Shown here: one piece after another, positions 12,896 through 23,745 of the stretch
How the letters are laid out: each line of letters starts with the position of its first letter
Numbering within the stretch: position 1 is the stretch's first letter
Assembly: GCA_938084925.1 (NCBI GenBank)
Contig: CALKFY010000038.1
Location: 1-64,000 of the forward strand
Source of the DNA: an uncultured Pseudomonadales bacterium
Lineage (GTDB): Bacteria > Pseudomonadota > Gammaproteobacteria > Pseudomonadales > Balneatricaceae
Length of the DNA stretch: 64,000 nucleotides
Direction of reading: 5' to 3'
The notes under the pieces: generated by a model
What the model saw: only the letters and a program-made list of their open reading frames with translations
Database searches by the model: none
Told to the model about the DNA's origin: nothing
Made by a program: the position numbers and the translations under genes

Positions 12896-14017
12896 TCACA
12901 GGCCTGCAGTGGCTTCTATGCAAGCTTGGTACGCCGGGCCAAGACTTGGCCAAGTATAAGACTGTACCGGCAGGCTTTGCCATATTGTCTGGCGTTGTTC
13001 TGGTGGTAGGCTTTGCCAAACTCTAATTTGTGCAACAAAAGCCATGGCCTGATGTTCTATATCGCCCGCGGCATCGAAACAATGTTCTGTGCCAACCAAC
13101 CCTGGATAACTCAAGCGATTCGGCAACAAAGGCAAGCAACCACACTGTACGGCTTCCCCCACAGCAAGACCTTGAAACTCGTGATAAGCCGTAGAAATAA
13201 CAAAATCACAAGTTTGCAGAAGTGCTTCGTAGTCTAGTTTCGAATCAACAAAGCCCACCTGCCCCAACTGGTCCAAAAACTCAGCCTGAACAGACTCCAG
13301 GGCCTCTGGCTGTTTGCGGAACTGCTGCCCTAACAAGTGCAGTTTGAAGTCTAGCTTCTGTGCTCTTAACTCACGCAGGCAAGCCAACAATAAGTCTGGC
13401 CCCTTGTCGTACTCCCAACGATGATTCCACACAAGATTAATAGGCTTATTTAAACTATTAACCATGCGATTGACGCTAGACTGTAGCGCAATAGGAATAG
13501 GCAGCACTTGGGACTTATTAAGCAAATCATCCAGCAAACTAGCAGGTAGCTTTTCTGGTAGGCGTTTCATCAAATCAGCTACACCAGCAATAAAGCTATC
13601 CCGATTATAGGCACTGTTAAATGCCAACTGAGTAGCACAAACGGCGGTATACAAATTGACCATCATGGGTTCAATATTGGCCTGCTTAGCCGTATTGGTT
13701 TGTTGCTGGCTCACGGGATAGGCAAACTGGTTCTCGTGAAAATACACCAGACTAGGAATAGATGCCAGGTTAGGCACCATGCCTTTCAAAGCTGACAGGT
13801 CTACCATAGAAGTAGCTATTATGAGGTCATAATCTTGCTCTAGCTTATGCCTTTTAGTCAGCGCCCATTGCAAGCTGTTGCCACGAATGCGCCAATTGAA
13901 ATAGCGCCCAGGCAAGACCAGCTGAGTCCAATCATAACCACAAAACTGAGAAACGATTTGCTGACGCCAATAGCGATGACTATCCGCATCGTAGGCCGAA
14001 AGCAAAAGGATGCGCAT
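12896..14017 (-). CDS. DUF3524-domain glycosyltransferase, homologue of tRNA-queuosine alpha-mannosyltransferase (GTDC1/QTMAN)
   Basis: LVYFHENQFAYPV, LAFNSAYNRDSFIAG, LVWNHRWEYDKGPDLLL and VISTAYHEFQGLAVGEAVQCGCLPLLPNRLSYP match the GTDC1 signatures as I recall them. Confidence 0.88.
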   Translation of the reverse strand: MRILLLSAYDADSHRYWRQQIVSQFCGYDWTQLVLPGRYFNWRIRGNSLQWALTKRHKLEQDYDLIIATSMVDLSALKGMVPNLASIPSLVYFHENQFAYPVSQQQTNTAKQANIEPMMVNLYTAVCATQLAFNSAYNRDSFIAGVADLMKRLPEKLPASLLDDLLNKSQVLPIPIALQSSVNRMVNSLNKPINLVWNHRWEYDKGPDLLLACLRELRAQKLDFKLHLLGQQFRKQPEALESVQAEFLDQLGQVGFVDSKLDYEALLQTCDFVISTAYHEFQGLAVGEAVQCGCLPLLPNRLSYPGLVGTEHCFDAAGDIEHQAMAFVAQIRVWQSLPPEQRQTIWQSLPVQSYTWPSLGPAYQACIEATAGL

Positions 14018-14796
14018 TACTTAGGCTCAGTATCGCGGATAAACCGAGATACTAGGCGCACGAACAAGTCAGGCTTTTCGGCATGCAGCCAATGGCCACA
14101 ATCCGTCATGACTTTAAGCTGTGTTTTAGGGAACAAGCTAGCAAATGCCGCTTTATGCTCTGGCAAAATATAGGCGGACTTCTCACCCTTTAGGGCTAGC
14201 ACAGGACCTTGATAGGCCGTGCCTTCTGGCGCGGCACTAATATTTTGATACTGCTCTTCAATAGTCTTTAGATTGAAACGCCAAGCAAATTCCTTGCACT
14301 CAGTGCGGTACAAGCTCTTAATCAGAAACTGACAAACCTTAATGTCAGGTTCATAGTTATTGAGCACTTCAAGACCTTGCATGCGACTCTTAAGATTAAC
14401 CAGATCAACGGCATTTAAGCCTGCCAAGATATCCTGATGACGCGGTGCATAAGGCACAGGAGCAATGTCAGCAAGGATCAAACTCGCGACAAGCTGAGGG
14501 TTGTTCAGTGCAAGCTGTGCAGCCACCTTGCCACCCATAGAGTGACCAAGGATGTGTGCTTGCTTGATACCTAGGTGTTCTAACAAAGCCACCACGTCAT
14601 CCGCCATATGGGCATAGGACATGTCAGGAGAATGAAAGGAATAACCGTGGTTACGCAGATCCAAACTGATGACGTGGCGTTCTTCGCTCCAGCGCACTAC
14701 ATGAGTGCGCCAATTGTCAGCGGCACCAAACAAGCCGTGTATAACAACTAGTGGTACGCCCTCGCCTGCATTGAACTGCTGATAGCTTAATAACAC
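14017..14796 (-). CDS. Alpha/beta fold hydrolase (YbfF-like esterase)
   Basis: VVIHGLFGAADNWRTHV, nucleophile elbow GHSMGGKVA, GHWLHAEKP. Confidence 0.9.
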   Translation of the reverse strand: MLLSYQQFNAGEGVPLVVIHGLFGAADNWRTHVVRWSEERHVISLDLRNHGYSFHSPDMSYAHMADDVVALLEHLGIKQAHILGHSMGGKVAAQLALNNPQLVASLILADIAPVPYAPRHQDILAGLNAVDLVNLKSRMQGLEVLNNYEPDIKVCQFLIKSLYRTECKEFAWRFNLKTIEEQYQNISAAPEGTAYQGPVLALKGEKSAYILPEHKAAFASLFPKTQLKVMTDCGHWLHAEKPDLFVRLVSRFIRDTEPK

Positions 14797-14800
14797 GCAG

Positions 14801-15184
14801 TTATTTCCAGATAGGTTCCATGAGGTTTTCTAGGTCGCCGTTGATTTCTACATCCACTTCTTCATAAGGGATTTCAAAGTCTTCTACCGGTTGCCATTCA
14901 GCACCAGGTGGGCGTTCCCAAACACTACCAGCGTTGTTATCCAACAAAGCTTCCAAGCTAGGGTCCTTTTCAACAAGTGGTTCTAACGGAAACGGTGGTA
15001 GGTTTTCAAATTCAGCTAGGAATTCGTCACTTTCATAACCAGTGAACAGGCGCCAACCAGTGTCATTGGCGTGTTCCGGAACGGTCTTGTACATAAAGCG
15101 TACAGGTAAGGCTTCGTCGCCCAAGGCTAGCTTGGAAACACGCGCCATATGACCATGGCGCGTTTGGCGTGGAGTATCACTCAT
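14801..15184 (-). CDS. DUF2185-like domain protein
   Basis: VRFMYKTVPEHANDTGWRLFTGYESDEFLAE resembles the DUF2185 signature. Confidence 0.7.
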   Translation of the reverse strand: MSDTPRQTRHGHMARVSKLALGDEALPVRFMYKTVPEHANDTGWRLFTGYESDEFLAEFENLPPFPLEPLVEKDPSLEALLDNNAGSVWERPPGAEWQPVEDFEIPYEEVDVEINGDLENLMEPIWK

Positions 15185-15192
15185 AAGGTATC

Positions 15193-16047
15193 TTAGATCA
15201 GTCCCAAATGTTGCGCATGATAACGCATATGTTCGCCGATGAAACTACTAATATAGTAGTAACTATGATCATAACCTTCACGGCTATGATACTTCAGCGG
15301 ATGCGCAATGGCTTCACAGGTGGCCGAGAATACCTCTGGGCGTAGCTGCTCAGCATAAAACGGATCAGCATCACCTTGGCAGATAAACAACTCTTGTGGC
15401 GCAATACCTTGGACCTTGTTGGCTTGTACAAGCTCATTAGCATCCCAGTTGGTCCATTCGGCCTTGTCTGCACCAATGTAACCTGTGAATGCTTTGTCGC
15501 CCCATGGGCACAAGCTAGGCGAAGAAATTGGCGCCATGGCTGATACAGAAGAAAAACGCCCAGGCTGCTTAAGGGCACTAATCAAAGCGCCATGACCACC
15601 CATAGAATGACCGCTAATAGAACGCTGGTCAGTAACCGGGAAATTGGCTTCGATTAAAGCCGGCAGTTCCTGATTCACATAATCGTACATATGATAGTTA
15701 TCAGACCAAGGCGCTTGCGTGGCGTTGACATAGAAACCGGCACCACTACCAAAATCATAAGCATCATCTTCGCCAGGCAAACCTAAACCACGAGGGCTGG
15801 TATCAGGCATAACAATGGCTAAACCTAGTTCTTGCGCTAAACCAAAGGCACCGGCCTTTTGGCTGAAATTTTCATCAGAGCAGGTCAAACCAGACAACCA
15901 GTACATCACTGGAGCTGGTGTATTTTGAGTGCTAGATGGCAAGAAGATGGCAAATACCATATTGCTGCTTACAGTGGCTGAGTCGTGTTCGTAGCGCTGC
16001 AACTGACCGCCGTGTACTCTAACATCAGAAAGTAATTTTAGGGACAT
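15193..16047 (-). CDS. fghA: S-formylglutathione hydrolase
   Basis: VMYWLSGLTCSDENFSQKAGA, SISGHSMGGHGALI, directly downstream of frmA. Confidence 0.95.
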   Translation of the reverse strand: MSLKLLSDVRVHGGQLQRYEHDSATVSSNMVFAIFLPSSTQNTPAPVMYWLSGLTCSDENFSQKAGAFGLAQELGLAIVMPDTSPRGLGLPGEDDAYDFGSGAGFYVNATQAPWSDNYHMYDYVNQELPALIEANFPVTDQRSISGHSMGGHGALISALKQPGRFSSVSAMAPISSPSLCPWGDKAFTGYIGADKAEWTNWDANELVQANKVQGIAPQELFICQGDADPFYAEQLRPEVFSATCEAIAHPLKYHSREGYDHSYYYISSFIGEHMRYHAQHLGLI

Positions 16048-16068
16048 TGCTGTTTCCTATAATTGAAC

Positions 16069-16121
16069 AAAAAAGGGGCTGTGGTTGCCGTCTTTAACTG
16101 ACTAGGCACCAAACCCCTTTT
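16069..16121 (-). terminator. Possible terminator or attenuator between frmA and fghA
   Basis: AAAAGGGG...CCCC-TTTT-type stem within the intergenic gap. Confidence 0.4.
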
Positions 16122-16140
16122 CGATTAGTAACGAATACTA

Positions 16141-17301
<1,161 letters not shown>

Positions 17302-18417
17302 TTAATTGTTGTTAGCTAGCCAACTACGTAACTCATTGGCAGTACCGCGAATTACCACCCTTTCTTGCTTCAATGAAAGTTGGTAATCATACATGGGGTC
17401 ATAATACCGGTTAAGCAGGAAACGAATCCAATCTCTGTGCGCAGAAAAGTTGTCTGTAAGCGACTGCTGCTGTAGCGCATTGGCAAGTAGTTTCTGCCCT
17501 TCCTCGTGAGCCTCTGCTCCTAGACGCTTACGAATGCGATACATACTGTCTTGCAAGCCTTCCGAAAGATGTTCAAAAGCCGCTTGCTTGTCTGCCAAAC
17601 GCTCTTCACGCACGGCAGTGGCTTCAACCACGTATTCTTCTAAAATACGATCAACACGGGCTTCTACATCATCTTCTAGCACAAGGATAGGAGAGGCCTT
17701 GAGCTTAGCTTGTAGACACTCAGGTAACATGCAGCGGCCTATTAGGCGGCTTTCATCTTCAAAAGCTACGGGTTGATTACCCGCTCGGGCTAATTGCAAC
17801 AAACGTAGGGTCAGCGCACTTTCAAAATTAATCTGACTAGGCTGTGGGTCAAACTGTTTGCCAAAGCTAGAACCCCGGTGATGGGCTAAGCCTTCTAGAT
17901 CTACATAGCGAGGAAAATCTACCAAAACGCGTGTCTTACCTGTGCCGGTGCGGCCACTCAATACCAAAGCAGGCAATTGCTCCACCAGCTCTTCGGTACG
18001 CGTAATACAGTGTTGACGCATGGCCTTGTAGCCACCTTCAACAAAGGCAATAGGATAACCGGCTTCGGCCAACCATTGTTGCGATATACGTGAGCGTAGG
18101 CCACCACGGAAGCAATACATGATGGTATCTGGCTTTGCTTGCATCTGCTCTACCCAAGCATCTACACGCTGTTGCTTAACGTCGCCGTTAACTAGCTCAT
18201 GTCCTAGTTTGATCGCAGCATCTTGGCCCTGCTCTTTGTAACAGGTACCAATCAGCTCACGCTCTTGATCGGTCATTAGAGGCAAGCTGACGCTACCGGT
18301 AAATGCGCCCTTTTCAAATTCGATAGGCGCGCGTAAATCGATCATGGGACGTTCACTCAGCAGGAGTTCGTCAAATTGATCTGAAGTTAGCGCGGTAGGC
18401 ATCTGTGTGGTAGTCAT
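17302..18417 (-). CDS. selU: tRNA 2-selenouridine(34) synthase
   Basis: N-terminal rhodanese domain (MYCFRGGLRS) plus P-loop domain (LSGRTGTGKTRVL), directly coupled to selD. Confidence 0.95.
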   Translation of the reverse strand: MTTTQMPTALTSDQFDELLLSERPMIDLRAPIEFEKGAFTGSVSLPLMTDQERELIGTCYKEQGQDAAIKLGHELVNGDVKQQRVDAWVEQMQAKPDTIMYCFRGGLRSRISQQWLAEAGYPIAFVEGGYKAMRQHCITRTEELVEQLPALVLSGRTGTGKTRVLVDFPRYVDLEGLAHHRGSSFGKQFDPQPSQINFESALTLRLLQLARAGNQPVAFEDESRLIGRCMLPECLQAKLKASPILVLEDDVEARVDRILEEYVVEATAVREERLADKQAAFEHLSEGLQDSMYRIRKRLGAEAHEEGQKLLANALQQQSLTDNFSAHRDWIRFLLNRYYDPMYDYQLSLKQERVVIRGTANELRSWLANNN

Positions 18418-19460
18418 TAGCTTAGGGTTACCCAGCTACCACCATCTGTCTTGTCACTTAGTTCACCGATCCAATGTACAGGCATGCCTTGGCTTTCTAG
18501 TAGCTCTTCGACCTGCTGTTTGGCATCTGCGGACACGGAAACTAGTAGACCACCACTGGTTTGTGGATCACATAGCACATTGATTTGACGATCCGTCATT
18601 CTCGGTAAGTGCTGACCATAGCTGGCATGGTTACGACCACTACCTCCAGGTACGGCATTTTTATCCAGATAAAAATCCAAGTCCGTTAGTAACGGCACTT
18701 GAGATTCCTTAACCGTAGCTTGTAATTCACTGCCACGGCAGACTTCCAACAAGTGTCCCATCAAGCCAAAACCAGTAACGTCAGTCATGGCGTTAACACC
18801 TTCAACCTTGGCTAGCTTTGCGCCAATGATGTTGAGTTTAACCATGTTATCGCGCGCTAGCTGGGTGTCTTCGCCACGCAGCAAACCTTTCTTTTCAGCG
18901 GTAGTAAGAATACCCACGCCAAGAGGCTTAGTTAGCAGCAAACAATCACCAGCTTTGGCTTGGTCATTACGCTTTAACTGATCAATATCGACACGACCGG
19001 TCACAGCCAAACCAAAGATAGGCTCTGGTGCATCAATACTGTGACCACCAGCTAACATCATGCCAGCTTCTGTACACACCTGACGGGCACCATCAATTAC
19101 TTGGCCAGCAACTTCTGGGGCCAGCTTATCAATTGGCCAACCCAAGATGGCAATGGCCATCAGTGGCGTACCGCCCATGGCGTAGATATCACTAATAGCG
19201 TTGGTGGCAGCAACACGACCAAAATCAAAGGCATCATCAACAATAGGCATAAAGAAATCGGTGGTACTTACCACCGCTGTGCCGTCGCCTAGGTCATAAA
19301 CGGCAGCATCGTCACGACTGTCATTGCCAACCAAAAGATTAGCATCATTAGCAGTTGCCATAGCCGGCAACTGACTTTGAAGAATAGTATCTAAAACCTG
19401 CGGTGCAATTTTGCAGCCGCAGCCAGCACCGTGGCTGTATTGGGTAAGCTTAATGGTCAC
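18417..19460 (-). CDS. selD: Selenide, water dikinase (Cys-type)
   Basis: [43 protein letters not shown]; active-site residue is Cys, not Sec. Confidence 0.96.
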
Positions 19461-19541
19461 TTGAAACTCTTTAAAATCAACAATTTTTACAAGGCACTAT
19501 TATCTGCCCTGAGTCTATGGAGTACAACCTTTTCTTTTGTT

Positions 19542-21617
19542 TCACATGAACGGCAGAAAGTCGTCTTGCAGTGGTAATTGCTGCCCTGCTACTTGACGAG
19601 TAAGCTGTGTGTACTGCTTTTGATTAAGCTGGGGCTGCCAGTGATGGCTCAGCCATTGTATTTCATTGCTAAGCAAGTGTTCTTTACGTAACAGCGCTAA
19701 GTACAAATATCCTTGGACGCCATAGACATTGCCATGGTAGTTGGCCACCTGGTCAATCAGATTTACCAATAATTCACTAGGCACACCACGGTAAGCCGGC
19801 GCCAGCAAAGCCAAGATGGCCTGGCTTAGCGGTGAAACCCAATATAACTGACCGTAGTAATGATAGAAGTTGGCCTGTAACAACTTACATAGCCTGGAGC
19901 CTTGGCTTTGCAATGGTAATACTACCTGCACACTTGGCAAACCTGTAGCAGCATCAAGGCGCTGCCCCGCCCACACTACTTGGTAGCCTGCTGTTTGCCA
20001 AAAGCGAATCACATCCGGCTCGGCGGCAAAACTAGATCCCAGCCATTGGGTTGTCCCTGAAGCTTGGTAAAACCCCTTTATTTGCTGCAACATAGCACGC
20101 CCAATGCCTTGTCCCTGAAGATTAGGATGCACGGCAATACGCTGAATACGCTGCATAGACAACTGGGCAGCCTCAGCACAACCTGCCTGTTGCGCTAATA
20201 TTTGTGCTAGCAAGTGACCTTTTACCCGCCTTTGTCCACGGGCCACCGCCACGCTTAAATCAGCTGCTAGATTACCTTCGGCCATTAGACAAGCAACGCC
20301 AATGAGATTACCTTGCTGGTCCAACCAACAATGGCTAGTCAGATCTGGATGATCTAGCAGCAAACGCAAATCTTGGGGTGTGGTTTGATAATGCGCCAAG
20401 CTCAATAGACCGTATACTTGGGACAATAACGCACTGTGTAGGGCTAACTCAGCGCCGCTAAACTGACGATATTTAACACGCGCCATATCTAACGTGGAAC
20501 TCATTTGCGGAAATACCGGCGCTAAAAAGCTTTGTTGAATAAGATCTTCTAACAGATCGCCTGCTTGCCACCGAATCGGTTGGCTTAGCTCTATTTGGCT
20601 TAGCTCGAAATGATGACGTTGAGCCAACGCTGGCAGTTTCAATGACAAACCTTGGCCGGTGCCTTCGTAACCATCACTAGAACTCACTAACACCAATAAG
20701 CAAAAGCGCTGCATTAAGGCTTGCAACAAGGCTTGCGGCAGACTTGCCGCCTCTTCAACAACCAGTATAGAACTGCTCGGTTGGGCTGGCGTATGTTGTA
20801 ACAACTGATCAATGGGCAAGTAACGAGCTTGGTCACCATGTTGATGCAACACAGCCCCTGCCGTTTGACTGGCAGCACTAGTAATTAGTGAATCGATGCC
20901 GTTAGCTGCTAAGTGCTCTAGAGCCTTGGCCACAGCGACGCTTTTACCCCGGCCTCTTGCGCCAGACACCCAAATTAATTGCCTGTTAGAGGGGCTAGCC
21001 AAATCTGCCAGTTCAACTAACTGGCCAAGCAATTGTTGCTGATCTGGCAGCAAACTAATCGATGTTAGATCAGGCGCAGATTTAATTGCGGGCAGCGTCG
21101 GCATATCAACATCCGCGTTACCTAGGTTCTGCTGTGCTTGTTTAGACAACTGCATAACACCACGCTGGTGCTGCCATAAACCTTGCCACCAGTTTTTAAA
21201 GGGCGATTTAACTGTATCCGCGCTATAGCCATAGTCAGCCCCTTGAGCGTCTAATTGCTCTTGCCAAGGCTCACCCGCAGGTACGATCAATACAGCTAAG
21301 CTAGCCCCTATTAAGGTGCCACAAAGGGCACTAAAACTATTAACATTGAATTCGTCACAGGCACGGTAGATAACTAGGTTGTGACTACGCCCCAAGTACT
21401 GTATTGCCTGTTGCGGCTTGATGTTGCGCACACCTAGCAAATCACTATCGGGCAGGTTGACGCTTACACCGGATAAGTCTGCCTCAGCAACCAGTTTAGG
21501 CAGTGTTTGCTGATAGGTTTCTGCGCACTCCTCAAGAACCAATAGTCCACGACTAGCTTGGGACTGAAGCTGTCTCCAATACTGGGTAAAGTCGGACCAA
21601 TGATGGAACTGAGGCAT
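19542..21617 (-). CDS. tmcA: tRNA(Met) cytidine acetyltransferase
   Basis: Helicase-like ATPase (VSGARGRGKSVAVAKAL) plus GNAT domain (IAVHPNLQGQGIGRAML); start chosen at MPQFHHW to avoid overlap with the divergent gene. Confidence 0.93.
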   Translation of the reverse strand: MPQFHHWSDFTQYWRQLQSQASRGLLVLEECAETYQQTLPKLVAEADLSGVSVNLPDSDLLGVRNIKPQQAIQYLGRSHNLVIYRACDEFNVNSFSALCGTLIGASLAVLIVPAGEPWQEQLDAQGADYGYSADTVKSPFKNWWQGLWQHQRGVMQLSKQAQQNLGNADVDMPTLPAIKSAPDLTSISLLPDQQQLLGQLVELADLASPSNRQLIWVSGARGRGKSVAVAKALEHLAANGIDSLITSAASQTAGAVLHQHGDQARYLPIDQLLQHTPAQPSSSILVVEEAASLPQALLQALMQRFCLLVLVSSSDGYEGTGQGLSLKLPALAQRHHFELSQIELSQPIRWQAGDLLEDLIQQSFLAPVFPQMSSTLDMARVKYRQFSGAELALHSALLSQVYGLLSLAHYQTTPQDLRLLLDHPDLTSHCWLDQQGNLIGVACLMAEGNLAADLSVAVARGQRRVKGHLLAQILAQQAGCAEAAQLSMQRIQRIAVHPNLQGQGIGRAMLQQIKGFYQASGTTQWLGSSFAAEPDVIRFWQTAGYQVVWAGQRLDAATGLPSVQVVLPLQSQGSRLCKLLQANFYHYYGQLYWVSPLSQAILALLAPAYRGVPSELLVNLIDQVANYHGNVYGVQGYLYLALLRKEHLLSNEIQWLSHHWQPQLNQKQYTQLTRQVAGQQLPLQDDFLPFM

Positions 21618-21693
21618 AGGTGATATTTTGGATGGCAAAAAGTACAGACTATTGTACACTCTGCCTGATACAAGCAGAACAAATAAAACCACC

Positions 21694-23745
21694 ATGCCCA
21701 GAATAGCCACAACCTGCCCTCACGACTGCCCTAGCACTTGCGCTCTGCAAGTGGAACGTCTAGATCAGAACACCATTGGTGGTGTCTACGCGTCCAAGGA
21801 CAATAGCTACACACAAGGCGTACTATGCGCCAAGGTAGCGCGTTACGCAGACCGCGTGCATCATCCTGACCGACTGACAAGCCCCCTACTACGTGTTGGC
21901 CCTAAGGGCGTGGGCAAAGAATCCTATCGCGAGATTGATTGGGACACAGCATTAGATATTTTGGCTGACCGATTTCGTAACATTGCCAAAGAACATGGTG
22001 CGCAATCCATCTGGCCTTATTATTACGCTGGCACTATGGGCTTGGTACAAAGGGATAGCATTAACCGTTTGACCCGAGCCCTGGGCTATACACGTCAGAA
22101 GTCTACTATTTGCGTAGGTATTTCTGATGCTGGCTTTATAGCGGCAACGGGCGCCAAACGAGGCGTTGACCCGCGTGAAGTAAAGCATAGCAAGTTAGTT
22201 GTGGTTTGGGGTGGCAACCCTGTACATACACAAATCAATTTTATGCACCACATTACCAAAGCCAAGATTAATAACGATGCTAAATTGGTTGTCATTGACC
22301 CCTATGAAACGGCCACGGCTAAAAAAGCCGATCTACACCTCATGCTACGCCCTGGTACTGACGGCGCCCTAGCGACCGGAGTTATGCATTACTTGTTTGC
22401 CAATGACTTGGTAGATTGGGACTACTTAGAAGAATACACAGACGACCCACACGGTTTAGCCGAACATGTGAAGCATCGAGATCTTGATTGGGCGGCTGAT
22501 ATCACTGGCGTTCCGGCTGCGCAAATAGCTGAATTCGCCCAACTCTACGGCGCTACCCCCCAGTCCTTTTTGCGTCTAGGCTATGGTTTTACGCGTTCCC
22601 GTAATGGTGCTTTCAATATGCATGCGGCAGCATGTTTGCCTGCTGTCACAGGCGCTTGGCAACACCTAGGCGGAGGTGCGCTGTATAGTAATGGTGGGCT
22701 CTATCCAATTAACCAGCGACTAGTTGTTGGTGCAGACTTGCCTACGCCTAGAGGCAGATACCTAGATCAGTCCCGTATTGGCCCCATACTCACAGGTAGC
22801 GACTACGATTTACAGGGCCAAGGTCCTATAAAAGCGATGTTGATCCAAAACACCAATCCTATGGTGGTGGCGCCAGAATCAAAACTTGTACACCAAGGCA
22901 TGGCCAGAGAAGACCTTTGGCTATGTGTGCATGAACAGTTTATGACAGAAACAGCCGCTATGGCTGATCTCGTATTACCCGCTACTATGTTTGTTGAGCA
23001 CAATGACATTTATGCCAGCGGTGGCCATACTCACCTACAGCTAGGTCGAAAAGTGATCGATGGCCCTGATTTGTGCCGCAGTAACAACTGGCTTATCAAT
23101 GAGCTTGGCAAGCGCCTTGGCGCCACGTCAGAAGCTTTTTATATGAGTGATATAGAGCTAGTTAAAGATTTAGTGGAGCGCAGTGGCTTAGATTGGGCCA
23201 AGATGTCAGCTGACAATTGGATTGATTGTGCTTTGCCATTTGAAACTGCTCACTATTTAGACGGCTTTGGCCATGCCGATGGCAAGTTTCACTTCCGCCA
23301 TGGCTGGCAAAAGATACCGCGCAGCAAGGTTAAACTATCAGGTTTCCCCGATCACGTGGCGATTACTGATGAAGTTGCTGGTGATCGACAGTGGCGCTTG
23401 ATAACCGCTCCAGCAAGGCATTTTTTAAACACCTCGTTTAACGAATCACCTATTAGTCAGAAACTGGAAAAACGTGCAGACCTACTGATTCATGTAGATG
23501 ATTTAAAAGATCTAGGATTAGAGGATGGAGCCGAAGTGATGATTGGTAACCGACATGGTTCGCTTGTCATACCGGCTAAAGCCACCAAAGGCATATTACC
23601 AGGAACCCTTGTGTGCGAAAGCTTGTGGCCTAACAAGGCTTTTAAACAAGGTGTTGGGATTAATTTGCTAACTAGTGCTCATGAAGCCTTCCCTAACGGT
23701 GGTGCCGTATTCCACGACACCGCCGTTTGGCTAAAGCCAGCCTAA
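21694..23745 (+). CDS. Molybdopterin-dependent oxidoreductase (DMSO reductase superfamily, N-terminal 4Fe-4S motif), substrate unknown
   Basis: TTCPHDCPSTCALQVE...GVLCAKVARYADR cluster motif, IWPYYYAGTMGLVQRDSINRLTRALG, C-terminal MoCo dinucleotide-binding domain; start chosen at MPRIATTCP. Confidence 0.9.
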   Translation: MPRIATTCPHDCPSTCALQVERLDQNTIGGVYASKDNSYTQGVLCAKVARYADRVHHPDRLTSPLLRVGPKGVGKESYREIDWDTALDILADRFRNIAKEHGAQSIWPYYYAGTMGLVQRDSINRLTRALGYTRQKSTICVGISDAGFIAATGAKRGVDPREVKHSKLVVVWGGNPVHTQINFMHHITKAKINNDAKLVVIDPYETATAKKADLHLMLRPGTDGALATGVMHYLFANDLVDWDYLEEYTDDPHGLAEHVKHRDLDWAADITGVPAAQIAEFAQLYGATPQSFLRLGYGFTRSRNGAFNMHAAACLPAVTGAWQHLGGGALYSNGGLYPINQRLVVGADLPTPRGRYLDQSRIGPILTGSDYDLQGQGPIKAMLIQNTNPMVVAPESKLVHQGMAREDLWLCVHEQFMTETAAMADLVLPATMFVEHNDIYASGGHTHLQLGRKVIDGPDLCRSNNWLINELGKRLGATSEAFYMSDIELVKDLVERSGLDWAKMSADNWIDCALPFETAHYLDGFGHADGKFHFRHGWQKIPRSKVKLSGFPDHVAITDEVAGDRQWRLITAPARHFLNTSFNESPISQKLEKRADLLIHVDDLKDLGLEDGAEVMIGNRHGSLVIPAKATKGILPGTLVCESLWPNKAFKQGVGINLLTSAHEAFPNGGAVFHDTAVWLKPA

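Follow-up and report, generated by a model that had tools for sequence, protein, structure and literature searches.

In an uncultured marine bacterium of the Pseudomonadales (Gammaproteobacteria) we identified a gene of the QTMAN (GTDC1) family, to which the animal tRNA-queuosine alpha-mannosyltransferase belongs. The gene lies on the minus strand at positions 12896-14017 of the window, by which we mean the whole 64,000-nucleotide stretch of DNA that was analysed. Taking together the family, the fold, the catalytic residues, the queuosine (Q) pathway of the genome, the selection acting on the gene and its placement near tgt in relatives, we consider it likely that the encoded protein, P0001, is a retaining GT-B enzyme that glycosylates Q at position 34 of tRNAs with a GUN anticodon. 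QTMAN is a family already catalogued in databases, and the window gene is an intact, selected bacterial member of it in a Q-making genome.

Family, fold and catalytic residues of P0001

The interval 12896-14017 holds a single complete open reading frame of 373 amino acids on the minus strand, running from ATG to stop, and the plus strand is closed by many stops in that frame. In Pfam, P0001 matched PF12038 (QTMAN_N) with an E value of 4.8e-53 over residues 2-176, which covers positions 1-168 of the 168 in the profile and scores 180 bits against a curated cut-off of 25. PF00534 (Glycos_transf_1) matched residues 195-312 with an E value of 1.3e-10. Judged from the profiles, these matches are far above chance, and they are independent of the human GTDC1 motifs that had led the original prediction to propose a bacterial GTDC1/QTMAN homologue. 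All four peptides quoted there are present in P0001 in the order stated, and 41 of 57 positions are identical to the human motifs as given there, a count that serves as a lead only. The QTMAN_N domain (13490..14014, minus strand) contains the invariant residues W42, R43 and H94-E95-N96, as placed by the Pfam match and the alignment. A search of NCBIfam with P0001 gave nothing above a family cut-off, and a sequence search of the PDB gave no close relative, the nearest entries being distant GT4 enzymes.

The original prediction had suggested a comparison based on AlphaFold. We built an AlphaFold (AF2) model of P0001 from a 10-sequence alignment (A1) and obtained a confident GT-B fold (mean pLDDT 87, pTM 0.86). 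The nearest solved folds belong to retaining GT-B enzymes of the GT4 and GT5 families (glycogen synthase, MshA, SenB, PimA), and for SenB, with a TM of ~0.65 to the model, the likeness is at the level of the fold only. The retaining GT-B fold seen in the model fits the family assignment, and on the two Pfam matches, the AF2 model and its nearest folds we annotate the gene as a QTMAN-family glycosyltransferase.

Residue numbering and alignment place the loop HEFQGLAVGE of the catalytic domain at residues 279-288 (13154..13183, minus strand), where E280 and E288 form the E-x7-E motif of GT4 enzymes. R200, K205 and E288 are invariant in the ten sequences of A1, with either E or D at position 280 throughout. 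R200, K205 and the E280-x7-E288 pattern fit what we take to be a GT4-type active site. In sequence and model, P0001 combines a GT-B fold with a GT4-type domain for nucleotide sugars that bears R, K and E-x7-E. The residue that follows the aromatic position in H-[ED]-[FY]-Q-G is Q in 108 of 111 relatives, F in two and Y in one; the human GTDC1 motif, as given in the original prediction, is H-E-F-F-G. A divergent bacterial subgroup with ~30% identity to P0001 (L003 in G104 and L009 in G066) carries F-F-G or Y-F-G. The F-F-G of this subgroup resembles the motif given there for the animal enzyme, the main bacterial group having F-Q-G.

Within the genus, QTMAN copies are 45-94% identical, compared with ~90% identity to the window's gene for frmA and ~80% for htpG. 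The two closest pairs gave dN/dS values of 0.16 (G249/G251) and 0.26 (G240/G252). These values and the retention of the catalytic residues argue that the gene is functional despite its divergence. Judged from these comparisons, QTMAN in the genus is under purifying selection and is a fast-evolving yet functional gene.

Queuosine genes, GluQRS and genomic context

The window's genome (2.38 Mb in 141 contigs, 87% complete) contains adjoining queA-tgt-yajC-secD genes as well as queG. Our call of a Q pathway rests on a search that covered queA, tgt and queG, as distinct from the early steps queC, queD, queE and queF. The original prediction regarded a genome lacking the Q pathway as evidence against it and named tgt, queA, queG and gluQRS among the genes to look for. 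All four were found, and with tgt, queA and queG in place the objection of a missing Q pathway does not apply. The PF12038 match, the GT-B fold, the catalytic residues and the Q pathway in the genome all bear out the proposed homology to GTDC1/QTMAN.

GluQRS (YadB) is the glutamyl-queuosine tRNA(Asp) synthetase, which attaches glutamate to the cyclopentene ring of Q34 in bacteria. The protein of the window's genome scored 366 bits and shares 46% identity with its E. coli counterpart across the part compared. GluQRS was above cut-off in 10 of the 12 QTMAN carriers among genomes drawn from the class and in ~114 of 192 non-carriers; it was clear in 35 of 36 named carriers, Mariprofundus having a weaker candidate. 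The original prediction had contrasted the animal modification with bacterial glutamylation; the two are no either/or, because GluQRS is present here and coexists with QTMAN in nearly all carriers tested. We also considered QTMAN as a replacement for GluQRS and ruled this out: both genes occur in the same genomes, including the window's own, without mutual exclusion, and QTMAN is no substitute for GluQRS.

A draw of 204 gammaproteobacterial genomes contained 12 with QTMAN_N (~6%), one of them stop-broken. The domain was also detected in 23 of 38 genomes of a set of relatives that includes the window's own, and in 11 of 15 genomes of the window's genus. The stop-broken homologue (L012 in G048) has an in-frame stop and is apparently decaying, and tgt and GluQRS are kept in that genome. 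Across GTDB genomes the domain occurs at at least 576 places, and the best 80 of these loci are nearly all from Gammaproteobacteria, with one from Mariprofundus, and mostly come from genera or samples taken to be marine. Marinobacter and Microbulbifer species are among the cultured carriers. The gene had no match in collections of phage and plasmid records, on which ground we rejected carriage by phage or plasmid; the window's QTMAN gene is chromosomal. All 12 carriers of the class draw and 35 of 36 named carriers have tgt, and queG was found in 26 of 27 carriers. In G066, the genome of L009, queG was not detected. As tgt is near-universal in the class (197 of 204 genomes of the draw), its co-occurrence with QTMAN is uninformative as proof of a link to Q.

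In the window, QTMAN is the last gene of a co-directional array on the minus strand. Upstream of it lie genes for a ybfF-like alpha/beta hydrolase (14017..14796), a conserved 127-aa ORF (orf127, 14801..15184), a frmB-like S-formylglutathione hydrolase (15193..16047), a frmA-like class III alcohol dehydrogenase (16141..17250), a selU-like tRNA 2-selenouridine synthase (17302..18417), a selD-like selenophosphate synthase (18417..19460) and a tmcA-like tRNA(Met) cytidine acetyltransferase (19542..21710); apart from orf127, all were named by eye. The order tmcA-selD-selU-frmA-frmB-orf127-ybfF-QTMAN is kept in G249, G251, G252 and G240, and G253 and G244 have part of it at the ends of contigs. In each of the 10 further genomes of the genus that carry QTMAN, ybfF adjoins it. 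In the window the stop codon of ybfF and the start of QTMAN overlap (TAATG), and translation of the two is therefore probably coupled. With TmcA, SelD/SelU and, if it acts as proposed, QTMAN, the array would bring together three systems for tRNA position 34. Across 12896-21710, enzymes that act or are proposed to act on this position share the array with frmA and frmB, two genes of formaldehyde detoxification.

Two recurrent gene orders, with names again given by eye, are seen outside the genus. Cellvibrionales-like genomes have tsaB-uppP-...-QTMAN-trpS, and in Pseudohongiella/OM182-like genomes QTMAN faces tgt-yajC-secD-secF. In the former order, queA-tgt lies ~4.5-6 kb downstream of QTMAN in L061, L087 and L098, a placement seen in Zhongshania and Spongiibacter thalassae, and queA starts close to where L084 ends. 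In the latter, tgt lies ~6 kb from QTMAN on the other side (L050, L052, L077). Since these placements represent two lineages only, we regard the link to tgt as suggestive, not strong. None of these placements is an operon with tgt, and the window's copy and tgt are on different contigs. Among 80 named loci, trpS follows QTMAN on the same strand in 21 (including L032, L037 and L061), mostly directly.

Possible sugar donor and acceptor

We propose that P0001 would move a hexose from a nucleotide sugar, by a retaining GT-B mechanism, onto the cyclopentene ring of queuosine already located at position 34 of a tRNA with a GUN anticodon, yielding glycosyl-Q, with Q-tRNA as the presumed substrate. 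As a guess from the animal enzyme, the sugar might be mannose from GDP-mannose, with Q of tRNA-Asp as the acceptor and an alpha linkage at the allylic hydroxyl. With GluQRS encoded in the same genome, the glycosyl and glutamyl forms of Q would either both be made on tRNA-Asp or be divided between different Q-tRNAs. Counting against the proposal are the near-universal occurrence of tgt, the restriction of the near-tgt placements to two lineages, the location of the window's copy and tgt on different contigs, the absence of ManC from the window's genome and most of its genus, and the F-Q-G of the bacterial group, which differs from the F-F-G given for the human motif. Glycosylated Q in this bacterium, as suggested in the original prediction, stands as the best inference from family, fold, residues and Q pathway; mannose as the sugar should not be assumed, as no ManC was found in the genome, whose assembly has gaps in the region that holds such genes in relatives.

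We weighed three narrower forms of this explanation, which overlap with it, so that their probabilities need not sum to one together with its own. P0001 might be a true QTMAN in all its properties, using GDP-mannose to attach alpha-mannose to Q34 of tRNA-Asp at the allylic hydroxyl, in competition with GluQRS. We regard this as a serious possibility that falls somewhat short of an even chance. It is favoured by the family shared with the animal enzyme, whose product, manQ, is Q of tRNA-Asp bearing alpha-mannose at the allylic hydroxyl (PMC8654956; PMC12518689). It is also favoured by ManC/AlgA, which outside the genus was present in each of the 26 carriers tested (split over contigs in one) compared with 23 of 30 hand-picked non-carriers (p ~0.009, calculated by hand and uncorrected for kinship and genome size). 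GluQRS, which acts on tRNA-Asp too, is however present in nearly all carriers, and a search for ManC (GDP-mannose pyrophosphorylase) found none in the window's genome and none in 7 further carriers of QTMAN from its genus, a negative result whose weight is reduced by the gaps that incomplete assemblies have at polysaccharide islands. ManC is present in 3 of the 11 QTMAN carriers of the genus, with the frame broken in two of these. The coexistence with GluQRS, stable in the class draw (10 of 12) and among the named carriers (35 of 36), would also fit a division in which QTMAN glycosylates Q of some other tRNA and leaves tRNA-Asp to GluQRS. Vertebrates offer a parallel by dividing galactose on tRNA-Tyr and mannose on tRNA-Asp between two enzymes, but both bacterial enzymes could share tRNA-Asp, and we rate this arrangement as somewhat unlikely.

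The donor in the genus might instead be UDP-HexNAc or another sugar nucleotide than GDP-mannose. A search with PF00483 returned a GlmU-sized protein alone (460-469 aa) in the window's genome (G000) and in G240, G243, G244, G249, G251 and G253, this GlmU-like protein being the sole NTP_transferase protein found in these seven carriers, and QTMAN is intact and constrained in the GlmU-only genomes. In G249, a genome with a completeness rating of 100%, an rfaH-like gene stands between yciO and core genes, and the site holds no island; this rfaH-like gene (7778-8209 of L176), beside the empty polysaccharide-island site, is without its N-terminal part. On the other side, manC and galU were found in polysaccharide islands located on short contigs or close to the ends of contigs (G246, G247, G250, G252); in G250 and G252 galU comes after yciO and a gene resembling rfaH. 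The yciO flank of the island site is absent from the assemblies of G000, G240, G243, G244 and G253, so that assembly gaps may account for the ManC absences in these five genomes. A second yciO copy in G251 lies with a wecA-like gene beside a recombinase-like gene on a 5.2-kb contig (L178), possibly a truncated island start. A non-mannose donor in the genus appears unlikely to us. With the flank absent from the window's genome and four others and only G249 fairly clean, we dropped a firm claim that the genus is without GDP-mannose, which is possible as the donor there. A change of H199 to alanine, seen in part of the genus, was discarded as a marker of ManC loss since it does not track with ManC absence. 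A bolder combination, in which marine Gammaproteobacteria would make glutamyl-Q and QTMAN-made glycosyl-Q in parallel and the window's genus would take the sugar from UDP-GlcNAc and not use mannose, strikes us as quite unlikely. We know of no report of a UDP-GlcNAc-derived Q nucleoside.

An acceptor other than Q, such as a small molecule, a selenosugar (a SenB-like role, with selD nearby) or a surface glycan, would accommodate SenB among the fold neighbours and selD and selU in the array. QTMAN_N, however, spans the whole N-terminal domain, and no SenB family model in NCBIfam matched P0001 at an E value of 0.001. selD is paired with selU, flanks fetched from relatives outside the genus contained no selD, and the gene recurs there in the neighbourhood of tgt or trpS and not in glycan clusters. 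We consider such an acceptor very unlikely and rejected the selenosugar enzyme on the family match and the lack of selD near relatives outside the genus.

Relation to known systems and significance

The proposed Q34 glycosyltransferase shares with animal QTMAN (GTDC1) a full-length QTMAN_N followed by a GT4-type C-terminal domain and the motifs HENQ, HRWE-DK and H-E-F-x-G-x4-E, the human ones as given in the original prediction. It differs in its bacterial host, where Q is made de novo and GluQRS coexists, and in having F-Q-G for the F-F-G given there. With MshA, PimA, SenB and glycogen synthase, retaining GT-B enzymes of GT4/GT5, P0001 has in common the fold and presumably the catalytic layout, whereas identity is ~10-15% and the N-terminal domains and acceptors are different. 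GluQRS, also encoded in the window's genome, likewise decorates the Q34 cyclopentene ring in bacteria but is a synthetase paralogue adding glutamate, unrelated to P0001 in fold and chemistry. Our literature search for bacterial manQ or DUF3524, which did not include Zhao et al. 2023, reportedly the discovery paper of QTMAN and QTGAL, found no study testing a bacterial member. QTGAL, the vertebrate Q galactosyltransferase, also glycosylates Q34 (PMC12518689), yet adds beta-galactose to the other hydroxyl and acts on tRNA-Tyr.

In the literature that we read, glycosylated queuosine is described as an animal or vertebrate modification. Going by its gene content, the bacterium may make two decorated forms of Q, glutamyl-Q and glycosyl-Q. 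If the bacterial homologue makes glycosyl-Q, the modification would be much older or would have passed between bacteria and animals. Bacteria would then have a second way of decorating Q34 beside glutamylation, and the long-open role of Q sugars would become testable in cultured Marinobacter and Microbulbifer carriers.
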